64,000 nucleotides of DNA from the IMG/VR virus record IMGVR_UViG_3300040809_000996, positions 62,001 to 126,000 of that record; one strand, written 5' to 3'. Numbering within the stretch: position 1 is the first letter of the stretch; each line of letters opens with the position of its first letter. Of the stretch, positions 3,815 through 17,968 are shown one piece after another. This DNA is from a virus. A program made the position numbers and the translations under genes. The notes under the pieces were generated by a model. That model saw only the letters and a list, made by a program, of their open reading frames with translations, did no database searches and had not been told where the DNA came from.

Positions 3815-5431
3815 ATGCACATTAAAAAAGTTGTAATTATAGGCGGCGGAAGTTCAGGCTGGATGACAGCAGCCGCTTTAAGCAAATGTTGTCCCCATTT
3901 ATCTATAACACTTGTAGAATCTAAAATAATAGGAACAGTTGGTGTAGGTGAAAGTACACTAGGACATATTAATAGATTTTTGCGGCTTTTAGATCTAAAA
4001 GATGAAGATTGGATGCCAAAATGCAATGCAACATATAAAAATTCAATACGTTTTACAAATTTTAGGATTGGGCAAGGCGAATCGTTTGAATATCCATTCT
4101 CAGAAGGATTAGACTATACAGATAAACCCGGAGGAACTGATTCCTGGTCTGAATTAGCAACGCTTTATCCTGACGAGTTTCCTCCGGAATCATTTGCTGA
4201 ATTTTTTTGCACCGGAAACACATTATTAGCAAAATATAATAAACAAACAAAAAACAAAGATAAATTATTAAGAAATTTTGATTTTGATTTTGACACAGCA
4301 TATCATCTTGATGCGCAATTATTTGGTCAATATTTAAAAGATAATGTAGCAATACCAAATGGTGTTGAGCACATAATAGGTGATGCTCATTCATTTAAAA
4401 AAGATCACTTAAACAATATAACAGACATACTTTTAATCGACGGAAGAACTCTAACTGCTGATCTTTGGATAGATTGCACAGGATTCAAATCACTTCTATT
4501 AGAAGATTGGATGGGTTCTGCATTTATGCCATTTACAAAATATTTGGCTAATGATAGCGCATGGGCATGTCGTTTGCCCTACACAGATAGAAAAAAGCAG
4601 ATGCTAAATGTAACAGATTGTTTTGCTCTAAATAATGGATGGGTTTGGACTATTCCGTTATGGAACAGAATAGGAACAGGATATGTTTATTCTAAAAGAT
4701 TTATTGAAAAAGAGAATGCCGCTATTGAATTTAGTAAACATTTAGAAAAAATTTATGGTAAAAAAATAGCAGATAAAGCAGAACTATTTCCTATTAGTAT
4801 TAGACACGGTAAAAGAAGAAGAGCATGGTTGAATAATGTTTTAGGAATAGGACTTAGTTACGGATTTGTAGAGCCGTTAGAATCAACAGGTTTGCTAACC
4901 ACTCACGAAAATATAGTAAAATTATTAGATGTTTTAAATAGACGAAATGGATATGTAACAAGGGCAGAAAAAGATGCCTACAATTTAGCAGTTGATTTTG
5001 ATGTAACAAAATTTAGAGATTTTGTATCGCAACATTATGCATTGTCACAGAGAACTGATACACCTTATTGGAGATGGTGTACACAAATTAATGAGTATGT
5101 TCCGGAACAATTTAATGAATTTGTTTTAAATCAAAATCAATATACAAATTTTCTAGGAAGCATGATAAATCATCATTATCATAGCGATTATATAGGAAAT
5201 ATGTACATTGCAGCTGGAATGGGGTTAAAATCTATTGCTACAAAAAATCTTATATTTAATTTTAATGATACAAAAAATTTAGCAACAAAAAAAGAACAAA
5301 TTGGTTTTACTAAACGTGCTTATTTTAAATATAGAGAGGCTATTACAAAACATGTTCTTACACTTCCTAGTCATTATGATTTTTTAAAAGATAATATATA
5401 TAATGGCATAGATGAATATATTAACAAGTAA
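3815..5431 (+). CDS. FAD-dependent tryptophan-halogenase-like protein 1
   Basis: 538 residues, the usual length for flavin-dependent tryptophan halogenases. The N-terminal Rossmann motif is IIGGGSSGWMTAAAL (residues 8-22), followed by VGVGESTLGH. Lys75 in NATYKNSIRF matches the lysine that activates HOCl in PrnA/RebH; the family motif WxWxIP is complete (WVWTIP), and the glutamate of FVEPLESTG matches the second catalytic residue. All canonical features are present, so this is the copy most likely to be a working halogenase. Halogenases of this family need FADH2 from a flavin reductase; none is seen nearby. It heads the plus-strand operon and overlaps the next gene. The substrate is unknown; phage halogenases of this kind are known from marine cyanophage. 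Confidence 0.88.
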   Translation: MHIKKVVIIGGGSSGWMTAAALSKCCPHLSITLVESKIIGTVGVGESTLGHINRFLRLLDLKDEDWMPKCNATYKNSIRFTNFRIGQGESFEYPFSEGLDYTDKPGGTDSWSELATLYPDEFPPESFAEFFCTGNTLLAKYNKQTKNKDKLLRNFDFDFDTAYHLDAQLFGQYLKDNVAIPNGVEHIIGDAHSFKKDHLNNITDILLIDGRTLTADLWIDCTGFKSLLLEDWMGSAFMPFTKYLANDSAWACRLPYTDRKKQMLNVTDCFALNNGWVWTIPLWNRIGTGYVYSKRFIEKENAAIEFSKHLEKIYGKKIADKAELFPISIRHGKRRRAWLNNVLGIGLSYGFVEPLESTGLLTTHENIVKLLDVLNRRNGYVTRAEKDAYNLAVDFDVTKFRDFVSQHYALSQRTDTPYWRWCTQINEYVPEQFNEFVLNQNQYTNFLGSMINHHYHSDYIGNMYIAAGMGLKSIATKNLIFNFNDTKNLATKKEQIGFTKRAYFKYREAITKHVLTLPSHYDFLKDNIYNGIDEYINK

Positions 5432-6200
5432 ACTGACCTCTTTTTTTAAAAAAAAACAATTTATTAGATTTTATACTCTTGAACCAGGGGTTGCAAAATT
5501 GTATCCAATACAAAAATCCCGACTTGTAAAAAGAGATTGGTTAAAAATAAAACAAGAAGTAGATACTAATACTAAAAGTTCTCAAAATTGTCCAGGAATA
5601 CAGAAAATAATAAACACAGGATATATTTTAACTGCACCTGCTGATTTTATAATAAAAACAAACGGAGATGGAGTAAGTGTTTATTGGGACGAAAGTTATC
5701 AGTTTAATAAATGTGGACAAATGGCAGAATATGCATATATAAATACACACAATTCTATACAAACCGAACCTTTATTAAATGATAAAGATAATATCCTTAA
5801 GACTGTAATTAAAGTTGAAACTCCGTGGAGGGTTGAAGTTTCAAATAATATCATACTGCTTATAATGCCAGTTGCTTATAATAATGAAGATAGGTTTGAA
5901 GCTGCAACTGGTTTTTTAGATCCAAGTTACATGCATGTTTTAAATGTCCAGTTGTATTGGAAAAAATTAAATGACGAAATTTTGATTAAAGCAGGCACTC
6001 CTCTTTGTCAAATTTTACCAATAGATAAAAAGATATTGCAAGATTCTACTTACACTTTAACAGTTGAAGAAGCAACTAATGCTGATTATAAACTTGAAAG
6101 AGATTTTGTTTATGCTTCAAATTCTTCAATCTACAGGAAAGATTCTGTTTTGGCTAGAATTAAAAGACTAAATAGAATATTATCAAAAGGAAAAAAATGA
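5412..6200 (+). CDS. DUF6065-like protein, copy 1
   Basis: 262 residues, overlapping the halogenase end by 20 bp. It is a clear paralog of the minus-strand protein at 18549-19373: both share RFY.L.....LYP near the N-terminus, NCP.I.....GY.LTAPADF, VKVETPWR (here IKVETPWR), P.YNNE.RF.AA.G..DP.YMH, and .AGTPL.Q..PI. I associate this pattern with DUF6065, a family of unknown function often found next to halogenases and 2OG oxygenases. No classical catalytic motif is seen. The predicted fold is beta-rich and may be cupin-like, which is inference only. Its presence in both halves of the island suggests it is a core component. Confidence 0.6.
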   Translation: MNILTSKLTSFFKKKQFIRFYTLEPGVAKLYPIQKSRLVKRDWLKIKQEVDTNTKSSQNCPGIQKIINTGYILTAPADFIIKTNGDGVSVYWDESYQFNKCGQMAEYAYINTHNSIQTEPLLNDKDNILKTVIKVETPWRVEVSNNIILLIMPVAYNNEDRFEAATGFLDPSYMHVLNVQLYWKKLNDEILIKAGTPLCQILPIDKKILQDSTYTLTVEEATNADYKLERDFVYASNSSIYRKDSVLARIKRLNRILSKGKK

Positions 6201-6439
6201 TTTATGTTGATAAAATAAACAATGCATTAAAAAATCTTGAAAATAAGTCATTAGAAATAAAAAATGACTTAGAACGTATTGAAAATGAGTTTAATGATTT
6301 AAAACTTAACCCATACGGTATTACTAGTATAGATTTTGCATCCAGACAAGAACTAAGTTCTGATTTACTTAAAATAGAAGGAACAATAATGGGTCTACAA
6401 TTAGCGTTGGAGCTAATAGAAAATGAACCTATTGAATAA
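6197..6439 (+). CDS. Small acidic coiled-coil protein
   Basis: 80 residues, overlapping the previous gene by 4 bp (ATGA). Residues 5-35 are strongly heptad-like (LKNLENKSLEIKNDLERIEN) and a second helix fills residues 50-75. No Trp or Cys is present. A different small helical protein (19370-19645) stands next to the other DUF6065-like copy, so a small helical partner may be part of the set. Unrecognised family. Confidence 0.55.
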   Translation: MIYVDKINNALKNLENKSLEIKNDLERIENEFNDLKLNPYGITSIDFASRQELSSDLLKIEGTIMGLQLALELIENEPIE

Positions 6440-7004
6440 TGGAGTTAATCTTTTTACTCCTTATATTTACAAATTTCAATTTCCATTTGAATTTGAAATA
6501 TTAAAACCTAAAATTTATAACCTATTAGAAAATAATTCAGAAACAAGTTTATTAGAAATAGGAAATTCAAAATCGTCAATTAAAGCTAGCAACACTGAAC
6601 AGCCACATACTTGGGAAGAACTAAGTGAATTCCAAGAATGGCTAGGAAGTATGATTTATTTTATTAGGAAAGAAAATAAATTTATTTATGAATATAATGA
6701 AGTTACAGAATCATGGATTAACATTCATTATAAAGGTGGACAAACTTTAGAACATAGTCATAATTTTATAACATTTGTAGTTACGGCTTACTTACAAGTT
6801 CCTGATAATTCTGGATATATAGAGTTTAAAGACCCATTAGAATATCATAAATCTATATATCCTATTTTTCCTGAAGAATCTCTTTATAAAGAATTACCTG
6901 TAACCACTAATGATGTTTTAATATTTCCCGGCTGGTTAAAACACAGAGTCCAACCCAATTTAAGTGATCACGAAAGAATTATATTTACTTTTAACATAAG
7001 ATGA
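6423..7004 (+). CDS. Putative 2OG-Fe(II) oxygenase, PF13759/TIGR02466 type
   Basis: 193 residues. The core shows H111-S-H113, then a strand ending VTAYLQVPDNSGYIEF, a second metal-type histidine at LKH174RV after LIFPG, and R185 in the final strand IIFTFNIR. The order matches the TIGR02466 group of putative 2OG-Fe(II) oxygenases, and the other members here (7794, 17357, 20036) show the same HxH ... FP....H ... R pattern. It overlaps its neighbours by 17 and 4 bp. Activity is inferred; the HxH in place of HxD should be kept in mind. The substrate is unknown. Confidence 0.65.
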   Translation: MNLLNNGVNLFTPYIYKFQFPFEFEILKPKIYNLLENNSETSLLEIGNSKSSIKASNTEQPHTWEELSEFQEWLGSMIYFIRKENKFIYEYNEVTESWINIHYKGGQTLEHSHNFITFVVTAYLQVPDNSGYIEFKDPLEYHKSIYPIFPEESLYKELPVTTNDVLIFPGWLKHRVQPNLSDHERIIFTFNIR

Positions 7005-7804
7005 CAGAATTTAAAAGATGCTATCCTGATGCAAATAATTTTGACAAAGTAATTAAAATTCACAATGTTGACAATTGGAATTGTAAATATTTTTCAATTG
7101 ATAAAGATTATGGTTATTGGATAACTGATCCGCCGTTTGACATAAAGCATTTTGAAATTTTTAAAAATCTTATAGCATCTTTTCCAATACAAAAAGACAA
7201 TAGCGCATTAACGAATTTTGATCCTAACCCATTTGATAGCATACACTTACCAGAATGGATTTATAAAGATATTTGCTATTTACTTATTGATTTTTATTCA
7301 AAAAATATTTCTAATGATATATATTTAGAGCAAATACACGAATGGGGCAATTTATACTTTCGTGAATTAACTAAACCTATAAGTTGCTGGAGAATTCCTC
7401 ACGTAGATTATGTTAATGGCTTAGTTACTAATTTATGGTTTACAGATCATTCTCTTGATATGTCATGTACAAAGTTATTTCATTATGAAGGAAAAATGTA
7501 TGAAACTGTTTATGATTTTCAAGTTGACGAAACCCACAAATTTCATAAACAATGGGTAGAAATAAGCAGGAATGCTACTAGGGCAAATAATTGGTTTAAC
7601 ATGCCAGATGAGGAATTAAAGAAATGGGGATTTAATTTGTTAGCGTCAATACCTACAAACGAAAAAACTATGACAATGTACAAAGCAAACATACCGCACC
7701 TAGCATATGTAGATCCTGAAGTTGATTTTAGATGGAGTCATTCGTTTGCTTTTAGCTTTATACCTGTGCCAAAAACTTTAAATGATTTAAGATATGCATT
7801 TTGA
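7001..7804 (+). CDS. Putative 2OG-Fe(II) oxygenase-like protein
   Basis: 267 residues. H134-V-D136 in the segment RIPHVDYVNGLVTNLWFTD looks like the HxD metal motif, with a candidate distal histidine in NIPHLAYVD (H233) and arginine R244 in RWSHSFAFSF. The remainder does not resemble a family I can name. It overlaps the oxygenase genes before and after by 4 and 11 bp, and this position in an unbroken run of oxygenase genes supports the call. Confidence is limited because the spacing between metal motifs, about 97 residues, rests on a distal His that I chose by eye. Confidence 0.5.
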   Translation: MTEFKRCYPDANNFDKVIKIHNVDNWNCKYFSIDKDYGYWITDPPFDIKHFEIFKNLIASFPIQKDNSALTNFDPNPFDSIHLPEWIYKDICYLLIDFYSKNISNDIYLEQIHEWGNLYFRELTKPISCWRIPHVDYVNGLVTNLWFTDHSLDMSCTKLFHYEGKMYETVYDFQVDETHKFHKQWVEISRNATRANNWFNMPDEELKKWGFNLLASIPTNEKTMTMYKANIPHLAYVDPEVDFRWSHSFAFSFIPVPKTLNDLRYAF

Positions 7805-8393
7805 CCTTTATTTTCCGACGCCGATATGGTGGGAAGAGACTAATATAGATACAACTGATTTACTTAATTTGTGTTACGATATATACAAATATGACCCAAC
7901 AGGTCGCGAACTTAGTAATGACGGAGGATGGCAAAGTAAAGATTTTTTACCTACAGCATTTAAACCATTACAAATTTTAAATAATAAAATATTAGAACAA
8001 GCAGAACAATGCGTCAGAGATTATGGATATATAGAAAAATTATCAAAAGTAAAAATTGAAAATTATTGGTTTAATATTAATAAAAAAGGACATTCTAACT
8101 CACATCACATACATGATAATTCATTTTTATCTGGAGCATTTTATCTAAAAGCAACAGAAAATCAAGGAGATATTACTTTTTATAAAAATAGTCTAGCAGA
8201 TTATATTATTACAAGTCAAAGTTTTATCGAAAATTATACTCAAATTAGTTGCGGTGCTATTAGTTATAAACCAAAAACTGGAAAATTATTATTATTTCCA
8301 GGACATTTAGCTCACGGTGTTTCTAGAAATCCTACTGACGAAGATAGAATATCAATAGCATTTAATGTTAGGATTGATAGGATATATGAATAA
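7794..8393 (+). CDS. Putative 2OG-Fe(II) oxygenase, PF13759/TIGR02466 type
   Basis: 199 residues starting FDLYFPTPIWWEE after MH, a typical TIGR02466 start (name of a fold that begins 'FPTPIW'). The metal region is HHIHDNSFLSGAFYLKA (H105, H107, D108), which matches the family block H-x-H..S..SG.YYL. The distal histidine is H174 in LLLFPGHLAHGVSRN and R185 follows in DRISIAFNV. This is the most typical member of this family in the window. The gene overlaps both neighbours. The reaction would be hydroxylation using 2-oxoglutarate and O2; substrate unknown. Confidence 0.75.
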   Translation: MHFDLYFPTPIWWEETNIDTTDLLNLCYDIYKYDPTGRELSNDGGWQSKDFLPTAFKPLQILNNKILEQAEQCVRDYGYIEKLSKVKIENYWFNINKKGHSNSHHIHDNSFLSGAFYLKATENQGDITFYKNSLADYIITSQSFIENYTQISCGAISYKPKTGKLLLFPGHLAHGVSRNPTDEDRISIAFNVRIDRIYE

Positions 8394-9105
8394 TTTTTTT
8401 GAAAATTTTAAAAAACAAAGTAATTTATTTTTAAATGATAATCCGTTATATATGAAAAATATTTTTCCTGCACCAGAAAAATATCTAAATTGGCACAACG
8501 TAGAACAATGTTTAAATTATCCTGAATTATTCGACTTTGAAGTTATTGATCCGCAAACAAATAGTAAAATAGAAATACCAACTTATAATAAAACTTGGGT
8601 TTGGTCAAAAACTGTACAAGACAAATCATTTATATTTGATAAAATTAACAATGGATTTGGACTTGTAATTTTAAATTATGGATCATTCAACGATGCCACT
8701 AATCAACTGTTAAAATATTTTGAACAAGAATTTTATGTGAATGCAGCTATTCATGTGTACTGTAACATTAAAAAAAATGGTTCTTTTTACATACATGAAG
8801 ATTATCCGTCTAATTTTATTATTCAAGTAGAAGGAACAACTCCGTGGAAAGTCTATAATAATAGATTATCAAATTTGTTTCCTACCGGTACTATGAATAA
8901 TTTTATTAAAGAAAAAGATTTATCTATTGCTTTAGATGTTGTGTTAGAACCAGGAGATGTTTTGTATATTCCGTCAAGAATGTATCATTATGCAAATCCA
9001 TGTAGTAAGCGATTAAGTATGAGCATACCGTGTTGGAATAAATATAAAACTGATCCAAAACATTTTTCTATTGATAGAGAAAGGTACAAATTAAATTATG
9101 AGTAA
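8386..9105 (+). CDS. JmjC/cupin-type 2OG oxygenase (ribosomal-oxygenase-like)
   Basis: 239 residues. I choose the ATG at 8386 because it overlaps the previous stop codon (ATGAATAA) and is preceded by AGGAT; a longer frame from 8365 is possible. H137-E-D139 in FYIHEDYPSNFIIQVEGTTPW gives the HxD motif followed by the Q.EG...W block of Cupin_4/JmjC proteins such as YcfD, and the segment LEPGDVLYIPSRMYHYAN supplies the distal H201. Known bacterial relatives hydroxylate a ribosomal protein arginine, so a protein substrate is plausible; this is inference. It is the only JmjC-type member among the island's oxygenases. Confidence 0.7.
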   Translation: MNNFFENFKKQSNLFLNDNPLYMKNIFPAPEKYLNWHNVEQCLNYPELFDFEVIDPQTNSKIEIPTYNKTWVWSKTVQDKSFIFDKINNGFGLVILNYGSFNDATNQLLKYFEQEFYVNAAIHVYCNIKKNGSFYIHEDYPSNFIIQVEGTTPWKVYNNRLSNLFPTGTMNNFIKEKDLSIALDVVLEPGDVLYIPSRMYHYANPCSKRLSMSIPCWNKYKTDPKHFSIDRERYKLNYE

Positions 9106-9682
9106 CATTTTTAAACCTATCGAAAAAAATATAGAAGATAAAGAATATGTTAAAAAAATTTATAATTATCTTACAAATATAGATTTTGACTGGCATTTTA
9201 TGGAAGATACAACTTTTGAAAATTCTAATATGCCTCAACACTCAACTCCTGCTTTTGGTAACTTAATTTATAATGAAAATAACATAAGTAATCTGCATTT
9301 AGATTTTTTTAAGCCTTTGTTATCTATAATAGAAAAACAATTTTCTCTAACAATAATTGATTTAAAAAGAATTAGGGCTGGATTTTTATTGAACACAAAA
9401 TTTTCATTGCCAAGCTTGCCATATAAGTACAATACTCCGCATAGAGACTTTGATCAAGAACATTTTGTTGTAATTTATTATGTAAATTACAGCGATGGAG
9501 ATACAATTATATTCCATGAAATTGATAAAGCTGAAAAATACTATCCTATGCATACGTGTACACCCAAGGCTGGAAAATTGTTATTGTTTAACGGATGGCA
9601 TTATCACGCAAGCACTTGTCCTAAAATGTGTACGAAAAGAATTGTAATTACATTTAATTTTACTGGAAAAATAAATGGATAA
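9098..9682 (+). CDS. Prolyl-4-hydroxylase-like 2OG-Fe(II) oxygenase A
   Basis: 194 residues. H115-R-D117 in NTPHRDFDQEHFVVIYYVN is a clear HxD motif, followed by YSDGDTIIF, the lysine-rich AGKLLLFNGWHYHAS with distal H170 (or H168), and R181 in KRIVITFNF, the 2OG-binding arginine. The layout is that of P4H-type oxygenases. It is a paralog of 10884-11498, sharing IYYVN.SDGDTIIF. Start ATG overlaps the preceding gene by 8 bp. The substrate is unknown; a peptidyl side chain is the family's usual target. Confidence 0.75.
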   Translation: MSNIFKPIEKNIEDKEYVKKIYNYLTNIDFDWHFMEDTTFENSNMPQHSTPAFGNLIYNENNISNLHLDFFKPLLSIIEKQFSLTIIDLKRIRAGFLLNTKFSLPSLPYKYNTPHRDFDQEHFVVIYYVNYSDGDTIIFHEIDKAEKYYPMHTCTPKAGKLLLFNGWHYHASTCPKMCTKRIVITFNFTGKING

Positions 9683-10379
9683 TTGGTACATTAATATTTT
9701 CAACAATAAACACAATTTGCCAGTATCTCAATTCATGGAATTACATGATGTCAAAAATAGATTTTTATATCCATATTTTCCTACAATAATAATTGATGAT
9801 TTTTATGAAGACTGTGATATAATAAGACACTTTGCTCTACAGCAAGAATTTTACAAAGGAGATAGAGGTAACTGGCCCGGATTACGCACTACATTATTGC
9901 ACGAATTAAATTATGATTTCTTTCAAATTTTTCTAAAAAAAATCCTGTTTATATTAAAAGATTACGGCATTACAAAAATTGAAAGATTAGAAACCGGATT
10001 TCAATTAACTGACGAAAACTACGGTAACGGATGGGTTCATGATGACGATCCGCAAGATCAAGTTGCCGGTGTTATCTATCTTAACAATGATGCACCTTTA
10101 GGTTCTGGTACCTGTATTTACAAAGATTGCAACGATCATAATGGAGAGTTTTTTAAAGATTTATTTGAGCAAGATGTAAATCAAACTGATGAAATAGATA
10201 GTAATAAATTTGAAAAATATAGGAAAGATCAAAGATCAAAGTTTGATACTGACATAGTAATTGAATCAAAGTTTAATAGATTTATTATGTTTGATACTAG
10301 AAATTGGCATTCTGCTGAAAACTTTTTTGGTAAAGGAAAAGATGCTAGACTAACCCAAGTTTTTTTTGTTAAAATCTAA
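9675..10379 (+). CDS. 2OG-Fe(II) oxygenase, DUF6445-like
   Basis: 234 residues. The N-terminal TIIIDDFYEDCDIIRHFAL block leads to H122-D-D124 in GWVHDDDPQDQVAGVIYLN, then SGTCIYKD, and a distal H212 in RFIMFDTRNWHSAENFF, with R225 nearby. The family resembles DUF6445, which I associate with halogenase clusters (from memory, not searched). All three expected metal ligands are present. It overlaps the preceding gene by 8 bp, and the next gene, a shorter paralog without the metal ligands, begins 1 bp after its stop. Confidence 0.68.
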   Translation: MDNWYINIFNNKHNLPVSQFMELHDVKNRFLYPYFPTIIIDDFYEDCDIIRHFALQQEFYKGDRGNWPGLRTTLLHELNYDFFQIFLKKILFILKDYGITKIERLETGFQLTDENYGNGWVHDDDPQDQVAGVIYLNNDAPLGSGTCIYKDCNDHNGEFFKDLFEQDVNQTDEIDSNKFEKYRKDQRSKFDTDIVIESKFNRFIMFDTRNWHSAENFFGKGKDARLTQVFFVKI

Positions 10380-10380
10380 T

Positions 10381-10887
10381 ATGCGTTATTTTAACCAGCC
10401 TGTAAAAATTATAGATGATTTTTTTGAATTTTATACATTATACAAAAATTTAGCTTTAGATGAAGAGTATATAACAACAGAACATATTTTTCCTGGCAAT
10501 ATATCTAAACCAATTAATGAAATTAACGAAAAAATATTTCATAACATTGCTAAAAAAATTATTATACATGCAAATGGTAAAGAAGATTTTAACCAATTGT
10601 ATATGGTTTTTAATTACATAACTAAATTAGAAGATAATACTGATATTAATATTTACTATCCTAATTTTGATATTGGAGGTATAATTTTTTTAAATTCAAA
10701 TGAAAACGATGATATTGTATTTTACAATTCTATTGATAGCAATTTTACTCCTTCAATTACAATAAAAATTAAAGAGAACCGATGTATATTTTTTTCTCCA
10801 AAAGAATATTTTAAAATACATAATTCTTTTATGCCAAACGAAAATGATAAATTAGTAATATTAAGATTTTTTGGACAAGTCACATGA
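10381..10887 (+). CDS. Degenerate 2OG-oxygenase paralog (probable pseudoenzyme)
   Basis: 168 residues from the ATG at 10381, which directly follows the previous stop. It aligns with 9675-10379: VKIIDDFFEFYTLYKNLAL matches the IIDDFYEDCDIIRHFAL block, and PNFDIGGIIFLN matches P..QVAGVIYLN. In that alignment the HxD histidine becomes N90 and the aspartate Y92, the distal histidine becomes F144 (CIFFSPKEYF), and the 2OG arginine becomes lysine. So no metal site remains, although the frame is intact. It may be a structural partner of the active paralog. It overlaps the next gene by 4 bp. Confidence 0.6.
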   Translation: MRYFNQPVKIIDDFFEFYTLYKNLALDEEYITTEHIFPGNISKPINEINEKIFHNIAKKIIIHANGKEDFNQLYMVFNYITKLEDNTDINIYYPNFDIGGIIFLNSNENDDIVFYNSIDSNFTPSITIKIKENRCIFFSPKEYFKIHNSFMPNENDKLVILRFFGQVT

Positions 10888-11498
10888 TAAATGAAATTAT
10901 TGAAATAAAAAATATTATTCCAAAAAGTCAGGCTGATTATATTGAAACTGTAATGACCGGATTTAATTTTTCTTGGGCATTAAATAAAAACATTGTATCA
11001 GGAGATAAATGTTTTATTAATGATTTAGACAACCCTGCTGGATGTAATCACTTTTTTTATGAGCAAAATTCTTTTACAAGCACTTTCTTTGATATGGTGT
11101 ATCCAATCATTTTAAATTTACAAGATAAAATCAAAGACCAAGACATATCAAGGCTAATAAGAATGAGGGCTAATTTAGTTTTTAAAAATCCTGCAATTAA
11201 TGAAAATGCATTTATGCCACATATAGATAGTTTTTTTAAACATATTGTAGCCATTTATTATGTAAATGATAGCGACGGAGATACAATAATTTTTAATGAA
11301 ATAAATGAAAATTATGATCCAGGAAGTAAAGACATTGAAAAAATTTCCTCTAGAGATTTTACTATTAAAAAAAGAGTAAAACCAGAGAAAGGTAAAATTT
11401 TAGTTTTTCCAGGATACTACTATCATACTGCAAGTTTTTGTAAAAAAAGTAAATTTAGATGCGTCATTAATACAAATTTATCTAATATTATATTATGA
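10884..11498 (+). CDS. Prolyl-4-hydroxylase-like 2OG-Fe(II) oxygenase B
   Basis: 204 residues. H113-I-D115 in FMPHIDSFFKHIVAIYYVN forms the HxD motif; then come NDSDGDTIIFNEIN, EKGKILVFPGYYYHTAS with distal H181, and R192 in KFRCVINTNL. It is the closest relative of 9098-9682 in the window and carries about 20 additional residues between the sheet and the distal histidine. Four-base ATGA overlaps on both sides suggest translational coupling. All expected catalytic residues are present; the substrate is unknown. Confidence 0.75.
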   Translation: MINEIIEIKNIIPKSQADYIETVMTGFNFSWALNKNIVSGDKCFINDLDNPAGCNHFFYEQNSFTSTFFDMVYPIILNLQDKIKDQDISRLIRMRANLVFKNPAINENAFMPHIDSFFKHIVAIYYVNDSDGDTIIFNEINENYDPGSKDIEKISSRDFTIKKRVKPEKGKILVFPGYYYHTASFCKKSKFRCVINTNLSNIIL

Positions 11499-12049
11499 AA
11501 GATTATATTTTACATCAAAGTTCTTACATCACAAATAATATTGAAGGTATTTTAGAAGATATTAAAATTGGTTTGAGACTACATCAAGAATTATTTCCTT
11601 ACGAAGATACAACATGGACGTATCCTAAATATAATACATTCAGTCTACTCGCACCTTCAAGTCATTTCTGGTATATTTTCCAAGAATTAAAAAATTTAAT
11701 ACTTACAAATATAACAGAAAATAAAGAACTTTGGTTACAATCATGGATTAATTATCATACTCATCAGGATTTATTAGATTGGCACGATCATGAATGGCCT
11801 TATCATGGATATATTAATTTAAATTGTGAAAAAACTGAAACAGTTTTTGAGTCGCATACTGTAAAAAATAAACCTGGTCAAATTTATTTTGGACATGGGC
11901 ACATTAAACACAAGGTAGTAGCGTTAGAAAATTTCGGTTATAAAAGAATTACAATTGGGTTTGATGTGCATACAATTCCAACTGGTAAATTATATAGGAC
12001 ATTTAATGAAAAACCATTTTTTAATCTAGGATTTATACCATTAGTATGA
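11495..12049 (+). CDS. Putative 2OG-Fe(II) oxygenase-like protein
   Basis: 184 residues. The segment LDWHDHEWPYHGYINLN holds H97-D-H99 in the position of the first metal motif, and GQIYFGHGHIKHKVVAL holds histidines H134, H136 and H139 for the distal site, with R151 in YKRITIGFDV. This order (metal motif, FGHGHIKH, arginine strand) fits a double-stranded beta-helix oxygenase, but which residues bind metal is uncertain. Four-base overlaps join it to both neighbouring genes. Confidence 0.6.
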   Translation: MKDYILHQSSYITNNIEGILEDIKIGLRLHQELFPYEDTTWTYPKYNTFSLLAPSSHFWYIFQELKNLILTNITENKELWLQSWINYHTHQDLLDWHDHEWPYHGYINLNCEKTETVFESHTVKNKPGQIYFGHGHIKHKVVALENFGYKRITIGFDVHTIPTGKLYRTFNEKPFFNLGFIPLV

Positions 12050-12669
12050 AAAAAGATTTTATTACAGTAAAAAATATTATTTCATTAGAGTTAGCAAATT
12101 TTATTTCATTAGAATTTAAAATGATGGAAGATGTTTGCAAAATAATTTATCCTAATACAGACTTTGCCGATTTAACAGAAAACACATTTGCAAGATACGC
12201 TCCTTTAATGATGGAAGCATTGTCTGTAAAAATTTTACCAATAATAGAAAAAAAATTAAAAGTAAAATTATATCCTACATATTCATATGCACGAATATAT
12301 TACAAAGATAGTTTTTTACAAAAACATTTTGATAGACAAAGCTCTGAATATACCGTCAGCATAGCATTAGAGCAGACAGATATATGGCCTTTGTATATTA
12401 GAAACAAATCTGATAAGATTTATGAAATTAAATTGAATATAGGCGATGGGGTAATTTATAAAGGTCACGAAAACCAGCATTGGAGAGACCCTTTACAAGA
12501 ACAAAGTCACACGCAATGTTTTTTGCAATATGTAGATGCAGAAGGACCTCACAGTAATCTAAAATTTGATACTAGACCTGTATTAGGCCTTCCTTTTGAA
12601 TATGCATCTACTGAAATGCAAGATAACATGTTTAAAACAAATACTTTATCAAAATTAGTTAAATTATAA
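12046..12669 (+). CDS. 2OG-Fe(II) oxygenase
   Basis: 207 residues. H94-F-D96 in FLQKHFDRQSSEYTVSIAL gives HxD; IGDGVIYKGHENQHWRDPL gives the distal H145 with R147 just after it, the pattern Y.G....HWR.P seen in other 2OG oxygenases. It is the last gene of the plus-strand oxygenase run and its TAA is interleaved with the stop of the minus-strand gene beyond it (TTATAA at 12664-12669). The segment after the metal site (LKFDTRPVLGLPFEYAS) is long for the fold. The substrate is unknown. Confidence 0.7.
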   Translation: MKKDFITVKNIISLELANFISLEFKMMEDVCKIIYPNTDFADLTENTFARYAPLMMEALSVKILPIIEKKLKVKLYPTYSYARIYYKDSFLQKHFDRQSSEYTVSIALEQTDIWPLYIRNKSDKIYEIKLNIGDGVIYKGHENQHWRDPLQEQSHTQCFLQYVDAEGPHSNLKFDTRPVLGLPFEYASTEMQDNMFKTNTLSKLVKL

Positions 12670-12873: not shown

Positions 12874-14391
12874 TTACCTTTCATTATTAAGCCATTTTGT
12901 TATAGTAATATGGCTATCAATTTCTTTACTATAAATATTTGTAATTGTATTTAACACATTAGAAAAATTATTTATTACTGAATTGTTTATATTGTACTCT
13001 TTATCAAAATAATTCATACCCTGCATTACCATTAACCATGCAGTCGGCGAGTAACCATTAAAAAAAGGTTTTTCTTTGGAATGTTCGACATGTTCAGTTA
13101 ACAAATAGATTTTATTTTTTAAGGATTCGCTTAAATCTATCTCATTAAGATACATATTCCAAAAATCTGTATTATTTTTTTGTCCTGTATAATGCAACAA
13201 TAAAAAATCTCTTATATCAACTGTAATAGTATACAATCTTTCATTATATCTATTTTGTAGTGTAGTATTAACTTCATATGGATTCCATAAATCGTCTAAA
13301 GCAAATAAAGATTCACAAATTAAAGCAATACCATTTGCCTCTAAAGGTTCTAAAAATCCAGTGCTTAATCCTATGCCTATAACATTATTTTTCCAGGAGT
13401 TTTCCATAAATCCTGGTTGATACGTAAAATTAGCTACAGGATCAATTTTTTTATTAAATTTTTTTTCAGCTTCTTGAATTGCATTATCTAAAGTTGTATG
13501 GTTGCTATCATATATATATCCACTACCATTACGATTTTTTAAATTTACATTCCAAGACCACCCATAATCCATTGCATATGCTTTTGTGACAACATTAGGT
13601 TCTGTTTCTCCCCACCATGCTACTACAGAATGAGCTGGAAAATAATAACTATTATCAATTATTGGTTCTTTTAACGTATTTCCTAATAATAATCGTGCAA
13701 AGCCAGTACAATCAAAAAACCATTTACTGTATATTTTTTCGCCATTTTTTAATTGCAAAAAGCTTATATTACCGTTATTAGAGTTACGTTCTGCATCTAC
13801 AAATATTGCATCTTTATAAATAATTCCTCTATTAAAAGAGATTTCTTTAAGATAAGCAGCAGTTGCTCTACTTTCATAGTGCCACATAGGCTGTAAACGA
13901 CTATCATTAGATTTAGGAACTTTATTTTGCTCTATAAAAGCATCAGCAAAAAATAATTTTGACAAAGGTATTTTATTCTTAATACAGTGCAATTCTACAA
14001 AATAACCAGCTCTTTCTTTTTGTAAAAAATTATTCATACTTTTAAAACTAAACTCATTATTAAATGTTTTATAGTTATCGAGCCATGGTGAATAATCAGT
14101 TTGTAAAGCATGAATAAACTCGGTATTTTTACTCCAGTTGTAAAATTTTCCTCCTAGCTTAGGAGTAGCATTTGTTTTTTTTTGAAAATCTTGTAAATCA
14201 ATATTTAAGTAGTTTAAAATATCATTAAACGTAGTGGCGCCACTTTCGCCTGCTATAATTGGTAAATGTTTAGAATTCTCAATAACTAAAATTTTTAAGT
14301 TTGGATAAATTCTTTTCACAAATAAGGACGTTAGCCATCCTGCTATACCTCCTCCTAATATTACAACATCATAACTTGTATTTGTATTCAT
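12874..14391 (-). CDS. Divergent tryptophan-halogenase-like flavoprotein 2
   Basis: 505 residues. The FAD motif is VILGGGIAGWLTSLFVK (residues 10-26), with AGESGATTF after it. The catalytic lysine is kept (K78 in NATPKLGGKF) and so is the glutamate in FLEPLEANGIALI. The family motif WxWxIP is changed to WSWNVN in DYGWSWNVNLKNRNGSGYIY, so Ile and Pro are lost. The motif normally marks halogenases against monooxygenases, so this copy may have another flavin chemistry. It overlaps the upstream halogenase gene by 23 bp. Confidence 0.78.
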   Translation of the reverse strand: MNTNTSYDVVILGGGIAGWLTSLFVKRIYPNLKILVIENSKHLPIIAGESGATTFNDILNYLNIDLQDFQKKTNATPKLGGKFYNWSKNTEFIHALQTDYSPWLDNYKTFNNEFSFKSMNNFLQKERAGYFVELHCIKNKIPLSKLFFADAFIEQNKVPKSNDSRLQPMWHYESRATAAYLKEISFNRGIIYKDAIFVDAERNSNNGNISFLQLKNGEKIYSKWFFDCTGFARLLLGNTLKEPIIDNSYYFPAHSVVAWWGETEPNVVTKAYAMDYGWSWNVNLKNRNGSGYIYDSNHTTLDNAIQEAEKKFNKKIDPVANFTYQPGFMENSWKNNVIGIGLSTGFLEPLEANGIALICESLFALDDLWNPYEVNTTLQNRYNERLYTITVDIRDFLLLHYTGQKNNTDFWNMYLNEIDLSESLKNKIYLLTEHVEHSKEKPFFNGYSPTAWLMVMQGMNYFDKEYNINNSVINNFSNVLNTITNIYSKEIDSHITITKWLNNER

Positions 14392-15877
14392 GTTTATCTA
14401 ATTCTTTTAATAATTCAATAGCTTCATTGTGTGAATAGGTTTGCAAATCTGGATTTGACATGTCATTATATATATCTTCTAATTTTAAAGAATTGATATA
14501 TAAATGTTTTTGAAATTGCTGTTTAATATTTTCCTGTCCTTTTTTTGATATTAAATTCAAACCTAACATAACTTGGCCAAAATTTAAACAATTAAACATT
14601 AACATAGTATCTTGAAAAAGTTGACTATCAGGAAAATTATAAGACATATAATCAAGATACTCTGCATTAAAATCAGTTAATTTTAAATCATTTTTGCAAA
14701 ATTTCCAAAAATTTGAATCTTTTCTACTTGTAAGGTAATGAAGTTGAATAAAGTCAATTATGTTACTAACAATCTTATTCATCCTGTCATTGTGTATTTT
14801 ACTTACTTTGGTATCATTTTTGTGGAAAAAATACAAAGAATTAGTTAATAAAAAACATTGTTGTATTACGGCTCCTATAGAAGTTGCTTCTAGTGGTTCT
14901 ACAAACAATCCACTTAGCCCAACAAATGCACAATTTTTATACCAAAATTTATCAGAAAACCCACTTGTAAAGTTAAAATATCTTGCATCTGTAATTTTTT
15001 TTGTAATATTGTTGGTTACATAATAATTTTCTATTTCATCTAACGCCCTATCAGGATTTATAAAATTGTTACAAAAAACGTATCCATTGCCATACCTTTC
15101 CTGTGTAGGAATCCTCCATGCCCATCCACTAGACATTGCTGTCGATAATGTATAATTTGGTATTACTTCGGTAATATCGGTTGAAAATGCCAAGGCACTA
15201 TTCATTGGAAGTTTATCAAATATAGTATGCCATTTAACTTCTAATTTTCTAGCCAGTATCCTTGCAAAACCTGTACAATCAATAAAAAAATCTGCAGCAT
15301 AAATTTTGTTATCTTTGTCGATAATATGGTTAATATTATTATTTTCATCTAGTATAGTATCAACTATTTCAGTGTCAACAATATGGATATTCCTTGTTAT
15401 TGAAAGATTCCTAAAAAAAGAATTCAATTTAAAAGTGTTAAAATGGAATTGTGATATAATTTTATCTAAAGGAGCAATATGTTTACCATTAATAGCTAAA
15501 TCCCAAACAGTTTTATCTGGCTCTACATTATCCATCACTAATTGTAACCATGATGTAAAAAGACCATTAGTATCAGATTGTGTAACAAAAAATTCAGTAA
15601 GATTATGCCAATAATGTTTATTATTTCCTAACCAATTTTGAAATTTGATTCCAATTTTAAAAGTTGCATCTGTTTCTCTAAATAAATCAAAGATATTGAT
15701 GTTCGAATGTATAATGAACTTACGGAAATGTTCTGTAGTTCCTTCGCCCACTCCTACAATTCCAATTTTAGAACTTTCAATTAATTGTATATCTAAATTA
15801 GGATATGCAGATCTAAGCATTAACGCTGCAATGTATCCACTTGTTCCGCCACCTACTATACAGATTTTATCTATCAT
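14369..15877 (-). CDS. FAD-dependent tryptophan-halogenase-like protein 3
   Basis: 502 residues. It starts MIDKICIVGGGTSGYIAALM (GGGTSG FAD motif), has VGVGEGTTEHFRKF, catalytic K74 in DATFKIGIKF, the complete WxWxIP motif (WAWRIP) in SSGWAWRIPTQERYGNG, and the glutamate in FVEPLEATSIGAV. All canonical halogenase features are present. It is closest to the next copy (15874), sharing KIGIKF.NW and the segment NGYVF...F. A four-base overlap couples it to that gene. The substrate is unknown. Confidence 0.85.
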   Translation of the reverse strand: MIDKICIVGGGTSGYIAALMLRSAYPNLDIQLIESSKIGIVGVGEGTTEHFRKFIIHSNINIFDLFRETDATFKIGIKFQNWLGNNKHYWHNLTEFFVTQSDTNGLFTSWLQLVMDNVEPDKTVWDLAINGKHIAPLDKIISQFHFNTFKLNSFFRNLSITRNIHIVDTEIVDTILDENNNINHIIDKDNKIYAADFFIDCTGFARILARKLEVKWHTIFDKLPMNSALAFSTDITEVIPNYTLSTAMSSGWAWRIPTQERYGNGYVFCNNFINPDRALDEIENYYVTNNITKKITDARYFNFTSGFSDKFWYKNCAFVGLSGLFVEPLEATSIGAVIQQCFLLTNSLYFFHKNDTKVSKIHNDRMNKIVSNIIDFIQLHYLTSRKDSNFWKFCKNDLKLTDFNAEYLDYMSYNFPDSQLFQDTMLMFNCLNFGQVMLGLNLISKKGQENIKQQFQKHLYINSLKLEDIYNDMSNPDLQTYSHNEAIELLKELDKHEYKYKL

Positions 15878-17364
15878 AATACATAATTAGTTGAAATAGA
15901 TTTCATGTACTCTAATGCTTCTCTACTAGAATACCATTCTTCTGTTAATTTGTTAGGAACATAAGAAATTTGCAATTCGTCATATTCTTGATATTGCGAA
16001 AATCTTGTCTTAAAGAGTTGTAATATATTTGTTTGATTAAACATTCTTAAGCCGTGCATTACCTGTATCCAATTTAAGCAATCATAAATCCTATATGTAC
16101 GGTTAGTAAAATCCTCAGGTAATAAAATTTGATTTACAAAATTATTTGAAAATAGTTCTAAATTTTCTTTATTAAAATCTGTTACAGTCATTTCATTACT
16201 ACACCATTTCCAAAATGCAGTATCGTCACGTTTTGTAAAATAGTGCAGTTGTATAAAATCTAAAATATTATATAACATATCATCAAAAATCTTATTATAA
16301 TTTTTACTGGTAGATACATCTTTCCGAGACCAATTCCATAACGAACTTGCTAATAATCTGACTTGTTGTATAGTTGTACTGATGCTGCTTGCTTCTAAAG
16401 GTTCTACAAAATTACTGCTTAATCCAATTGATACACAATTTTTAGTCCATGCTTTGTCAATTTTTCCTGAGATAAAATTAATTTTCCTACCAATGTTGAT
16501 AGTATCAGGAAAATATTTTTGTATTTCGTTGACTGCAGTTTCTTCATTAATAAAAGCATCGCTAAATACATATCCATTACCAAATCGATCTTGTACTGGA
16601 CTCCGCCAATGCCATCCTGCATCCATGGCTTTTGCTAAAGTAAAAACTGGAATATCTTTTTGACTGGGTGTTTGAAACGCAACAGCTGAGTTTAATGGTA
16701 AATATTTTGACCAGTCTGTCCAAGTAGACCCTAACTTAGATGATATAACCCGCCTAAACCCGCTACTATCTATAAAAAAATCAGCAAAATATTTATTGTT
16801 GTTATTATCTATTATAGATTCTACAAATCCTTCATTATCTACAGAAACATCGACAATATCAGCAATTACAAATTTAATATTTAATGCTTTTGCTTTATTT
16901 TCTAAAAAAAGATTTAATTTTTCACTGTCAAAATGGAATTGATAATAATCAGTGAAAGGTTCTTTAACATAACCTTGTAACGGTAAATCCCAATGTAATT
17001 TTTCTGAGGAAATTCCATTGCCTATAAGTCGCATTAAAGTATATGGTGCACCGCAATACGGATCTGTATTTACTAAAAACTCGGGCAAACTATGGAAATA
17101 ACTTGTGTTATCACCGTGCCAATTTTCGAATTTAATACCAATTTTAATCGTTGCACCGCATTCTTTTACGAGATCTACCATGCTAATGTCAACTGCATCT
17201 GCAAATAATTTCCAATGTTCTGTAGAACCTTCGCCAACACCTATAGTTCCAATTTTATCAGATTTTATTATTGACAAATTTAAAGAAGGAATAGCAGTTT
17301 TTAGATATATAGCAGCCATTAATCCTGCATTTCCTCCTCCTAAAATAATTATATCGTTAATCAT
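15874..17364 (-). CDS. FAD-dependent tryptophan-halogenase-like protein 4
   Basis: 496 residues from the ATG at 17364 (a TTG two codons earlier is less likely). It has the FAD motif DIIILGGGNAGLMAAIYLK, IGVGEGSTEHW, K74 in ATIKIGIKF, and the glutamate in FVEPLEASSIS. The WxWxIP motif reads WHWRSP, so the isoleucine is replaced by serine. It is most like 14369-15877. The gene overlaps the oxygenase gene at 17357-17968 by 8 bp. It is probably a halogenase, with some doubt from the altered motif. Confidence 0.82.
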   Translation of the reverse strand: MINDIIILGGGNAGLMAAIYLKTAIPSLNLSIIKSDKIGTIGVGEGSTEHWKLFADAVDISMVDLVKECGATIKIGIKFENWHGDNTSYFHSLPEFLVNTDPYCGAPYTLMRLIGNGISSEKLHWDLPLQGYVKEPFTDYYQFHFDSEKLNLFLENKAKALNIKFVIADIVDVSVDNEGFVESIIDNNNNKYFADFFIDSSGFRRVISSKLGSTWTDWSKYLPLNSAVAFQTPSQKDIPVFTLAKAMDAGWHWRSPVQDRFGNGYVFSDAFINEETAVNEIQKYFPDTINIGRKINFISGKIDKAWTKNCVSIGLSSNFVEPLEASSISTTIQQVRLLASSLWNWSRKDVSTSKNYNKIFDDMLYNILDFIQLHYFTKRDDTAFWKWCSNEMTVTDFNKENLELFSNNFVNQILLPEDFTNRTYRIYDCLNWIQVMHGLRMFNQTNILQLFKTRFSQYQEYDELQISYVPNKLTEEWYSSREALEYMKSISTNYVL

Positions 17365-17968
17365 CTTCAATTTTAATATTAATTTTTGAGTCTGTTGCTA
17401 AATTATAGTTAATTTTACCCGTTGGCATTGTATTAAAACTTATAATGTATCTTGAAGTATTTGCGATATGTATATCGCTCTTATGATAAATGTAACTAGG
17501 AAAAATTATTAATTTTCCTGGTTCGGGACTAATTTTTTCTTCTGGGTGATAATTAAATTTTAATACCTGCAATTGTGTATCAATAGCTTGTTCAAATGGA
17601 TCAATGAAGGTTGTAGCAGATCCGTCTGTTAAGTAATATATACCACTGTAAAAACTCATACTGTGTTTGTGTGTATCTAAATACATGTTGTAATCTGCTA
17701 ATGAAACATTTACCCAGCTATTTGTTATTTTTATTTGATCACAATCATATTGCTTAATTTTTTTTACTTCTTTTAAACAGTCACTAAACCAATTAAATAA
17801 ATCTTGAAAGTTTTTATTGTTTTTTAAATTAATTAGTAAACTAATTTGAGTAGTTTTTTTTATTTGTATATCTTCTAATGTTTCTAAATTTGCAATTAGC
17901 TTTTTATTATCAAAATTTTTGTTATAAAAAACAAAAAAATCTATAGGAAAAAGTTTTAAAATTTCCAT
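17357..17968 (-). CDS. Putative 2OG-Fe(II) oxygenase, PF13759/TIGR02466 type
   Basis: 203 residues from the ATG at 17968, which overlaps the preceding stop by 1 bp (TAATG); a longer frame lacks support. Residues 84-113 read SWVNVSLADYNMYLDTHKHS then SFYSGIYYL, with H100-K-H102 in the metal position. FPSYIYHKSD supplies H162 and R173 follows in SRYIISFNTMPTGKI. This matches the other TIGR02466-like members of the island (6423, 7794, 20036). Function is inferred from fold motifs and context. Confidence 0.7.
   Translation of the reverse strand: MEILKLFPIDFFVFYNKNFDNKKLIANLETLEDIQIKKTTQISLLINLKNNKNFQDLFNWFSDCLKEVKKIKQYDCDQIKITNSWVNVSLADYNMYLDTHKHSMSFYSGIYYLTDGSATTFIDPFEQAIDTQLQVLKFNYHPEEKISPEPGKLIIFPSYIYHKSDIHIANTSRYIISFNTMPTGKINYNLATDSKINIKIEDD

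Follow-up and report, generated by a model that had tools for sequence, protein, structure and literature searches.

The window analysed here is a stretch of 64,000 nucleotides taken from the 144-kb virus record of a water-borne phage. Its oxygenase island (Table 1) contains two adjacent genes, copies A and B, of the DUF6445 (PF20043)/phrog_1644 family, to which syn9 gp52 and S-CREM1 78 also belong, in islands of similar gene order. Unlike the window, syn9 and S-CREM1 had one ligand-intact copy, and when both loci were read no copy B was found between their gp52-type and gp53-type genes. In the window the ATG of copy B is located one base past the copy A stop codon, while the start of the next gene overlaps the stop codon of copy B. 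A TTG would extend the frame upstream; we preferred the ATG because it is nearer to the starts of the relatives.

Table 1. Features of the window around copies A and B.
Feature	Coordinates	Strand	Remarks
Tryptophan halogenase gene	3815-5431	+	Adjoins the island
Oxygenase island	5412..12669	+	Gene order resembles syn9 gp43-gp54 and S-CREM1 70-80 (Synechococcus phages)
2OG oxygenase-like gene 5' of copy A	9098..9682	+	phrog_274; counterpart beside A in the compared loci
Copy A, intact DUF6445/phrog_1644 2OG oxygenase, 234 aa	9675..10379	+	Ligands H122, D124, H212 and Arg225
Possible TTG-started 5-aa extension of copy B	10366..10380	+	Shares bases with the 3' end of copy A
Copy B, ligand-less 2OG-oxygenase-fold protein, 168 aa	10381..10887	+	N90, Y92, F144 replace H, D, H
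2OG oxygenase-like gene 3' of copy B	10884..11498	+	phrog_274, as syn9 gp53
Three tandem tryptophan-halogenase-like genes	12874-17370	-	phrog_2928; converge on the oxygenase island

Near copy B, a promoter scan found 18 sites, compared to 12.9 (sd 3.3) in shuffled sequences, and no terminator-like site was detected by the terminator scan. The direct repeats between copies A and B were short and diverged. Near-identical strains differed by 47 synonymous and 20 nonsynonymous changes in 8365-9105 and by 7 and 7 in 9098-9682, while the other compared neighbour genes (copy B apart) had 0 to 2 differences. The segment 8365-9682, covering the JmjC/cupin gene and a part of the next gene, is probably a recombined block.

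Catalytic 2OG/Fe(II) oxygenases are defined by the HxD...H metal triad, and an Arg or Lys residue binds the C5 carboxylate of 2OG. Copy A has the triad, and its R225 is presumably the 2OG-binding Arg. The protein matched the DUF6445 profile with E 6.7e-14 and phrog_1644 with E 1.3e-32; its AlphaFold2 model had a pLDDT of 88.0 and a Z score of 16.9 to a bacterial P4H. Sequence searches against solved structures with copy A gave no match, or none better than E 0.33.

In copy B the triad is absent. The sequence-only reading had described this gene as an oxygenase paralogue that lost all its metal ligands in a frame that stayed open, and this description was borne out. The frame 10366-10887, counted from the TTG, is open in all four records of the window type, the present one included; one of the four ends at a contig end. 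In the alignment with copy A and the relatives, residues N90 and Y92 are placed under H122 and D124, and F144 under H212, while the flanking blocks IIDDF (residues 10-14), P94....GGIIFLN and R134-C-IFF are kept. The replacement of the 2OG Arg by Lys was a different matter: Leu158 aligns with R225 and is preceded by Lys157, so that Lys takes this position only by a one-residue shift. Two further features are missing from copy B, the Trp preceding the HxD motif and an insert of about 30 aa that lies between barrel strands in copy A.

The loss of ligands was no assembly slip, since the gene is present at 98% protein identity in three further contigs, of which one ends before residue 144. That the ligand-less state is an artefact of alignment or assembly is scarcely credible. 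The identity of window B to the intact relatives is just 27-37% (pairs aligned), which would leave room for misplacement; still, no gap interrupts the alignment of the motif blocks at the metal-ligand positions, and the near-identical contigs show the same state.

Copy B matched phrog_1644 with E 7.2e-5 over residues 5-109 and S-CREM1 78 with E 6e-10; no Pfam match was found up to E 1. All the seven relatives that were scanned had a better phrog_1644 match than window B; four of them clearly passed the Pfam DUF6445 cut-off, L107 passed it narrowly, and L125 and L145 failed. The two matches of copy B, along with relatives occupying the same place in many contigs, show that its homology is not due to chance.

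The AlphaFold2 model of copy B, made from 42 aligned sequences, had a pLDDT of 84.6 and a PHD2/P4H-like barrel, a confidence partly owed to intact relatives, since many of these were in the input. Among solved folds the closest were OGFOD1 (4nhx; VIA-align Z 14.8, rmsd 3.2 with 163 residues aligned), a bacterial P4H (Z 14.8; also matched by the copy A model) and PHD2 (Z 14.2). The model thus assigns copy B to the double-stranded beta-helix fold. Foldseek matches to the same model included a P3H1 chain at rank 3, a chain of vaccinia C16 at rank 5 and a chain of 7VBQ, the TlxI/TlxJ structure, at rank 31. CRTAP is a non-catalytic partner of P3H1. This human collagen-processing complex is a heteromer with a 2OG hydroxylase, and its P3H1 chain matches the copy B model by fold.

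Relatives were collected from IMG/VR in scans that used first an A-family alignment and later B alignments; these gave loci L015-L240. The lists comprised the best 80 of 494 confirmed relatives, 80 of 90, and 75 loci; the share of ligand-less copies among them is therefore not a frequency in nature. We observed that in many contigs of uncultured phages copy B is located directly behind copy A, mostly with its ligands intact (among the loci fetched). The fetched loci held 171 distinct family proteins, of which 146 were intact (HDHR) and 19 were ligand-less with a readable distal site; the remaining six were cut at contig ends or split, and include the window type in L005. By place, the intact proteins were divided into 57 first members of tandem pairs, 39 second members and 50 proteins outside tandem pairs. 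No readable copy A in the fetched loci had lost a ligand, and all 57 distinct first members were HDHR.

The search for equivalents in related islands, suggested by the sequence-only reading, showed that window B is not a unique oddity. Ligand-less B copies were found at the same place in other phages, in at least 39 records that make up four groups: the window type, KIY/VLHS/RIHS, KSYR and EGYK. Counted by hand among the loci listed, there were 26 KIY, four VLHS, one RIHS, two EGYK, two KSYR and four window-type records, some of which are perhaps re-assemblies of one sample. The sequence-only reading had counted intact ligands in related phages against itself, and such relatives do exist: B was intact in 39 distinct proteins of the fetched loci, compared to 19 ligand-less ones. 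The loss is therefore lineage-specific and recurrent, not unreal.

In all the 37 ligand-less records of the fetched loci with visible upstream sequence, copy A was directly upstream, i.e. each such B is encoded with a catalytic paralogue; a few of these A copies are contig-end pieces, and L164 shows just the last 78 aa. The position of B directly behind A, with a gp53-type gene downstream, also makes these genes orthologous by place; in KSYR, EGYK and many long intact groups the best gp53-type match is about 500-620 nt past B. With repeated loci counted, all KIY (49), VLHS (8), RIHS (2) and EGYK (2) pairs had a four-base overlap of B with A. The KSYR pairs overlapped by one base, and the window pair has a one-base gap.

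Two candidate broken copies were set aside. L232 is in fact an A gene followed by a B start cut at the contig end. In L037 the stretch with the split B aligns to L035 over 1306 bases with a single mismatch and a single gap, and the split may therefore be an assembly error.

Cultured phages were searched as well. A KIY protein had nine matches at 22-31% identity among 50,697 phage records, and the two loci read among these, syn9 and S-CREM1, were single-copy and ligand-intact; an intact short B matched 33 phage records. When contigs of bacterial and archaeal genomes were scanned with the ligand-less alignment, 151 stretches came up, none of which was confirmed. The Prochlorococcus phage P-SSM2 (L009, 5995-7375) has a tandem pair of the same family with both members ligand-intact. 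This pair is annotated as 'minor coat protein', which is also the label of phrog_1644 and seems doubtful for an oxygenase fold.

The ligand-less groups do not share one pattern of loss. VLHS and RIHS retain the distal His, KSYR retains the Arg, and EGYK has a Lys at the Arg position; the 2OG Arg and the insert of about 30 aa are lost in three of the four groups. These retained residues, the kept barrel and a His at position 74, present in both full-length near-identical strains of window B, could mean that catalysis persists in B with other ligands or a different cofactor. We regard this as very improbable. The first two ligand positions vary among the groups (K, V, R, E, N and I, S, L, G, Y, respectively). 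Furthermore, histidines in window B occur at 35, 54, 63 and 147 only, with none between residues 64 and 146, and its barrel therefore has no alternative HxD...H set. A clade of short B proteins (L025, L028, L031, L034, L038 and L094) also lacks the insert and the Trp before HxD while keeping H, D, H and R; loss of the insert and loss of the ligands are therefore separable.

Besides the losses, the ligand-less copies showed a common set of kept and new residues. Out of 40 columns conserved at 90% or more in 24 intact B proteins, 14 were kept and five were lost in all four ligand-less groups (by majority rule within KIY/VLHS/RIHS); the three metal ligands are among these five, partly through the definition of the groups. 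K9, H63, P140 and G165 are common to all four groups, while A mostly has other residues there; this pattern suggests that B had a role of its own before the ligand losses. Directly past the distal-ligand position, all 19 readable ligand-less proteins of the fetched loci had Lys or Arg. Such a residue was present in 0 of 96 intact tandem members (0/57 first and 0/39 second) and in eight of the 50 intact proteins outside tandem pairs. Independent losses would make the basic residue a case of convergence; if B was exchanged between phages, it is partly due to shared descent.

The number of losses was assessed with two trees. The B-family tree had 102 rows; it left out proteins under 130 aa and the distant loci L064-L093 and L235-L240, and where two proteins shared 93% identity or more, one was dropped. 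KIY frames with an earlier start (195 aa) had 26 residues trimmed for both the tree and the codon work. With the ligand columns in, ten of the eleven ligand-less rows formed one clade (support 99/94), while L145 (EGYK) was placed among intact proteins; a twelfth row labelled ligand-less, L045, is merely cut by the contig end. With the ligand columns out, the clade dissolved, and the tree had four state changes, two of them forced by well-supported branches. The AU tests on B rejected none of the constraints. Joining the ligand-less rows in a single clade gave p 0.475 for ten rows and p 0.119 for all eleven; grouping window B with L113/L152/L020/L017/L019 gave p 0.296, and grouping KSYR with L116/L153/L039/L140 gave p 0.24. 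The last two constraints place window B and KSYR B much like the positions of their A copies.

The neighbour tree was built from A and four neighbours in 37 phages (1058 columns) by a quick method with SH-aLRT support alone; the neighbours were the best match per locus, and in the three outgroup phages the second copy served as A. In this tree the window was beside L113, L145 beside L029/L030, and L151 beside L116/L039/L140, all of these partners having an intact B, while the KIY/VLHS/RIHS phages formed a clade of their own. The place of the window is the least sure, because its row is long and compositionally odd. The tree had four ligand-state changes, all forced by starred branches. A single origin of all ligand-less copies was rejected by the AU test on this tree (p 3.5e-5 for eleven rows and 6.7e-5 for ten), though not by that on the B tree. 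On these alignments, the ligand losses in B number two to four events: the ligands disappeared on four occasions, or B was passed between phages independently of the neighbouring genes, and such an exchange of B alone could lower the count.

For the KIY group we found that B is constrained by purifying selection, somewhat less than intact B. The codon model on 11 sequences gave an omega of 0.128 for KIY B (against omega of 1, 2dlnL 178) and 0.052 for KIY A. Omega values of B and A were 0.091 and 0.047 in the short intact set, and 0.040 and 0.024, and 0.071 and 0.029, in the two long intact sets. Thus, B had a higher omega than A in all four phage sets having both, the intact sets included. Pairwise counts had the same direction (0.26 for KIY B, 0.14 for KIY A). 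The omega of 0.017 for the four VLHS and RIHS sequences was near saturation and was not used.

For window B itself, the comparison with each of two whole near-identical contigs gave one synonymous and three nonsynonymous changes, too few to gauge selection, and its branch was very long (about 2.5). The higher omega of B and this long branch would also fit a relaxed constraint. A rival reading is that copy B of the window lineage is decaying, with selection relaxed and the frame not yet broken. The long branch, the strain changes just given, the loss of the insert and of the 2OG Arg, and the lack of a Pfam match are in line with this reading. We find it improbable. The frame is open in all four window-type records, as far as the one cut at its contig end extends, and selection in the KIY group is purifying. 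A neutral simulation, crude and limited to substitutions, was started from two intact relatives. With either start, none of 1000 runs reached the divergence of the window gene stop-free; with one of the two, 30 of 1000 reached 80% identity. The simulation informs on the window gene only if the divergence came after the ligand loss.

The sequence-only reading had proposed a pseudoenzyme kept for structure or binding. This proposal gained from the recurrence of ligand-less relatives at the same place, from purifying selection in KIY and from the presence of A upstream in every ligand-less record where that sequence is visible; for the window gene itself, the variation was too small to add to it. 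Its further suggestion, that B works with the active neighbour A, fits the pairing and the four-base overlap seen in most ligand-less relatives.

We give an even chance to the reading that B, after two to four ligand losses, was retained as a non-catalytic subunit of A, as in TlxI/TlxJ. The two genes would form an ancient tandem pair of DUF6445-type 2OG/Fe(II) oxygenases within a phage oxygenase-halogenase island. Copy A retains the catalytic residues, while B is predicted to adopt the same barrel and would have no need for an iron site of its own. In the window phage and the other groups, either the whole HxD...H triad of B or just the first two of its residues are gone, with the frame staying open. 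Produced beside A from adjoining or overlapping genes, B would serve as the non-catalytic subunit, and it may stabilise A or shape the substrate site of A in the manner of TlxI. A possible role of the basic residue is to fill or neutralise the emptied metal pocket.

A more specific version, which we hold tentatively as possible without favouring it, is that the enzyme was a two-subunit oxygenase in which B was mainly structural even before the losses, and up to four independent losses followed, each with Lys or Arg by the emptied site. In this version the basic residue would hold the pocket or a new ligand, and the groups would represent parallel evolution of an obligate dead subunit.

The closest known parallel is the fungal heterodimeric 2OG oxygenase TlxI/TlxJ (PDB 7VBQ), where a dead paralogue is likewise encoded with a live partner. 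TlxI is described as a catalytically incompetent paralogue sharing a gene cluster with the catalytic partner TlxJ, and kcat/Km was 1.63 for TlxIJ compared to 0.02 for TlxJ alone (PMC12141560). For TlxI a lack of the 2OG Arg is reported, whereas window B lacks the metal triad too. The fungal pair belongs to a natural-product cluster, while A and B are from a phage island and the pair is known from genes and monomer models.

It is also conceivable, though in our judgement unlikely, that B is a pseudoenzyme retained for a role that does not involve A, as a binder or decoy whose host or phage target would be a protein, a nucleic acid or another oxygenase. Vaccinia C16 follows the same logic, with a barrel kept without cofactor residues: its N-terminal PHD2-like domain is reported to lack key cofactor-binding residues and to bind PHD2 (PMC9674614). 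Like B, it is a viral 2OG-oxygenase fold; unlike B, it comes from an animal virus and is a two-domain dimer, and the available part of the source mentions no tandem active paralogue, so the likeness is at the level of fold only. A separate job would agree with the residues that B retains and A mostly lacks, and the basic residue by the old site could serve binding; on the other hand, no ligand-less B occurred without A in the 37 fetched records where the upstream sequence is visible.

A single cyanophage can carry many divergent 2OG-Fe(II) oxygenase genes, with ten reported in S-CREM1 (PMC9964418) and 24 in S-SCSM1 (PMC9602691); the parts of these two papers available to us mention neither ligand-less copies nor heteromers. 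In the open-licence literature we found no paper on DUF6445 and, in a limited check, none on ligand-less phage oxygenases. Pseudo-2OG-oxygenases as such are already known, while none that recurs in phage oxygenase operons came up in that literature within the same limited check.

The open frame and the losses at the same place in related phages suggest that the dead B copy still has a job. Such phages carry large sets of 2OG oxygenases along with tryptophan halogenases, and a recurrently dead paralogue beside a live one means that at least one phage oxygenase may act as a heteromer. An A/B pair should then be co-expressed before an enzyme is called inactive. The repeated losses and the common basic residue would form a natural replicate set for the transition from enzyme to pseudoenzyme.
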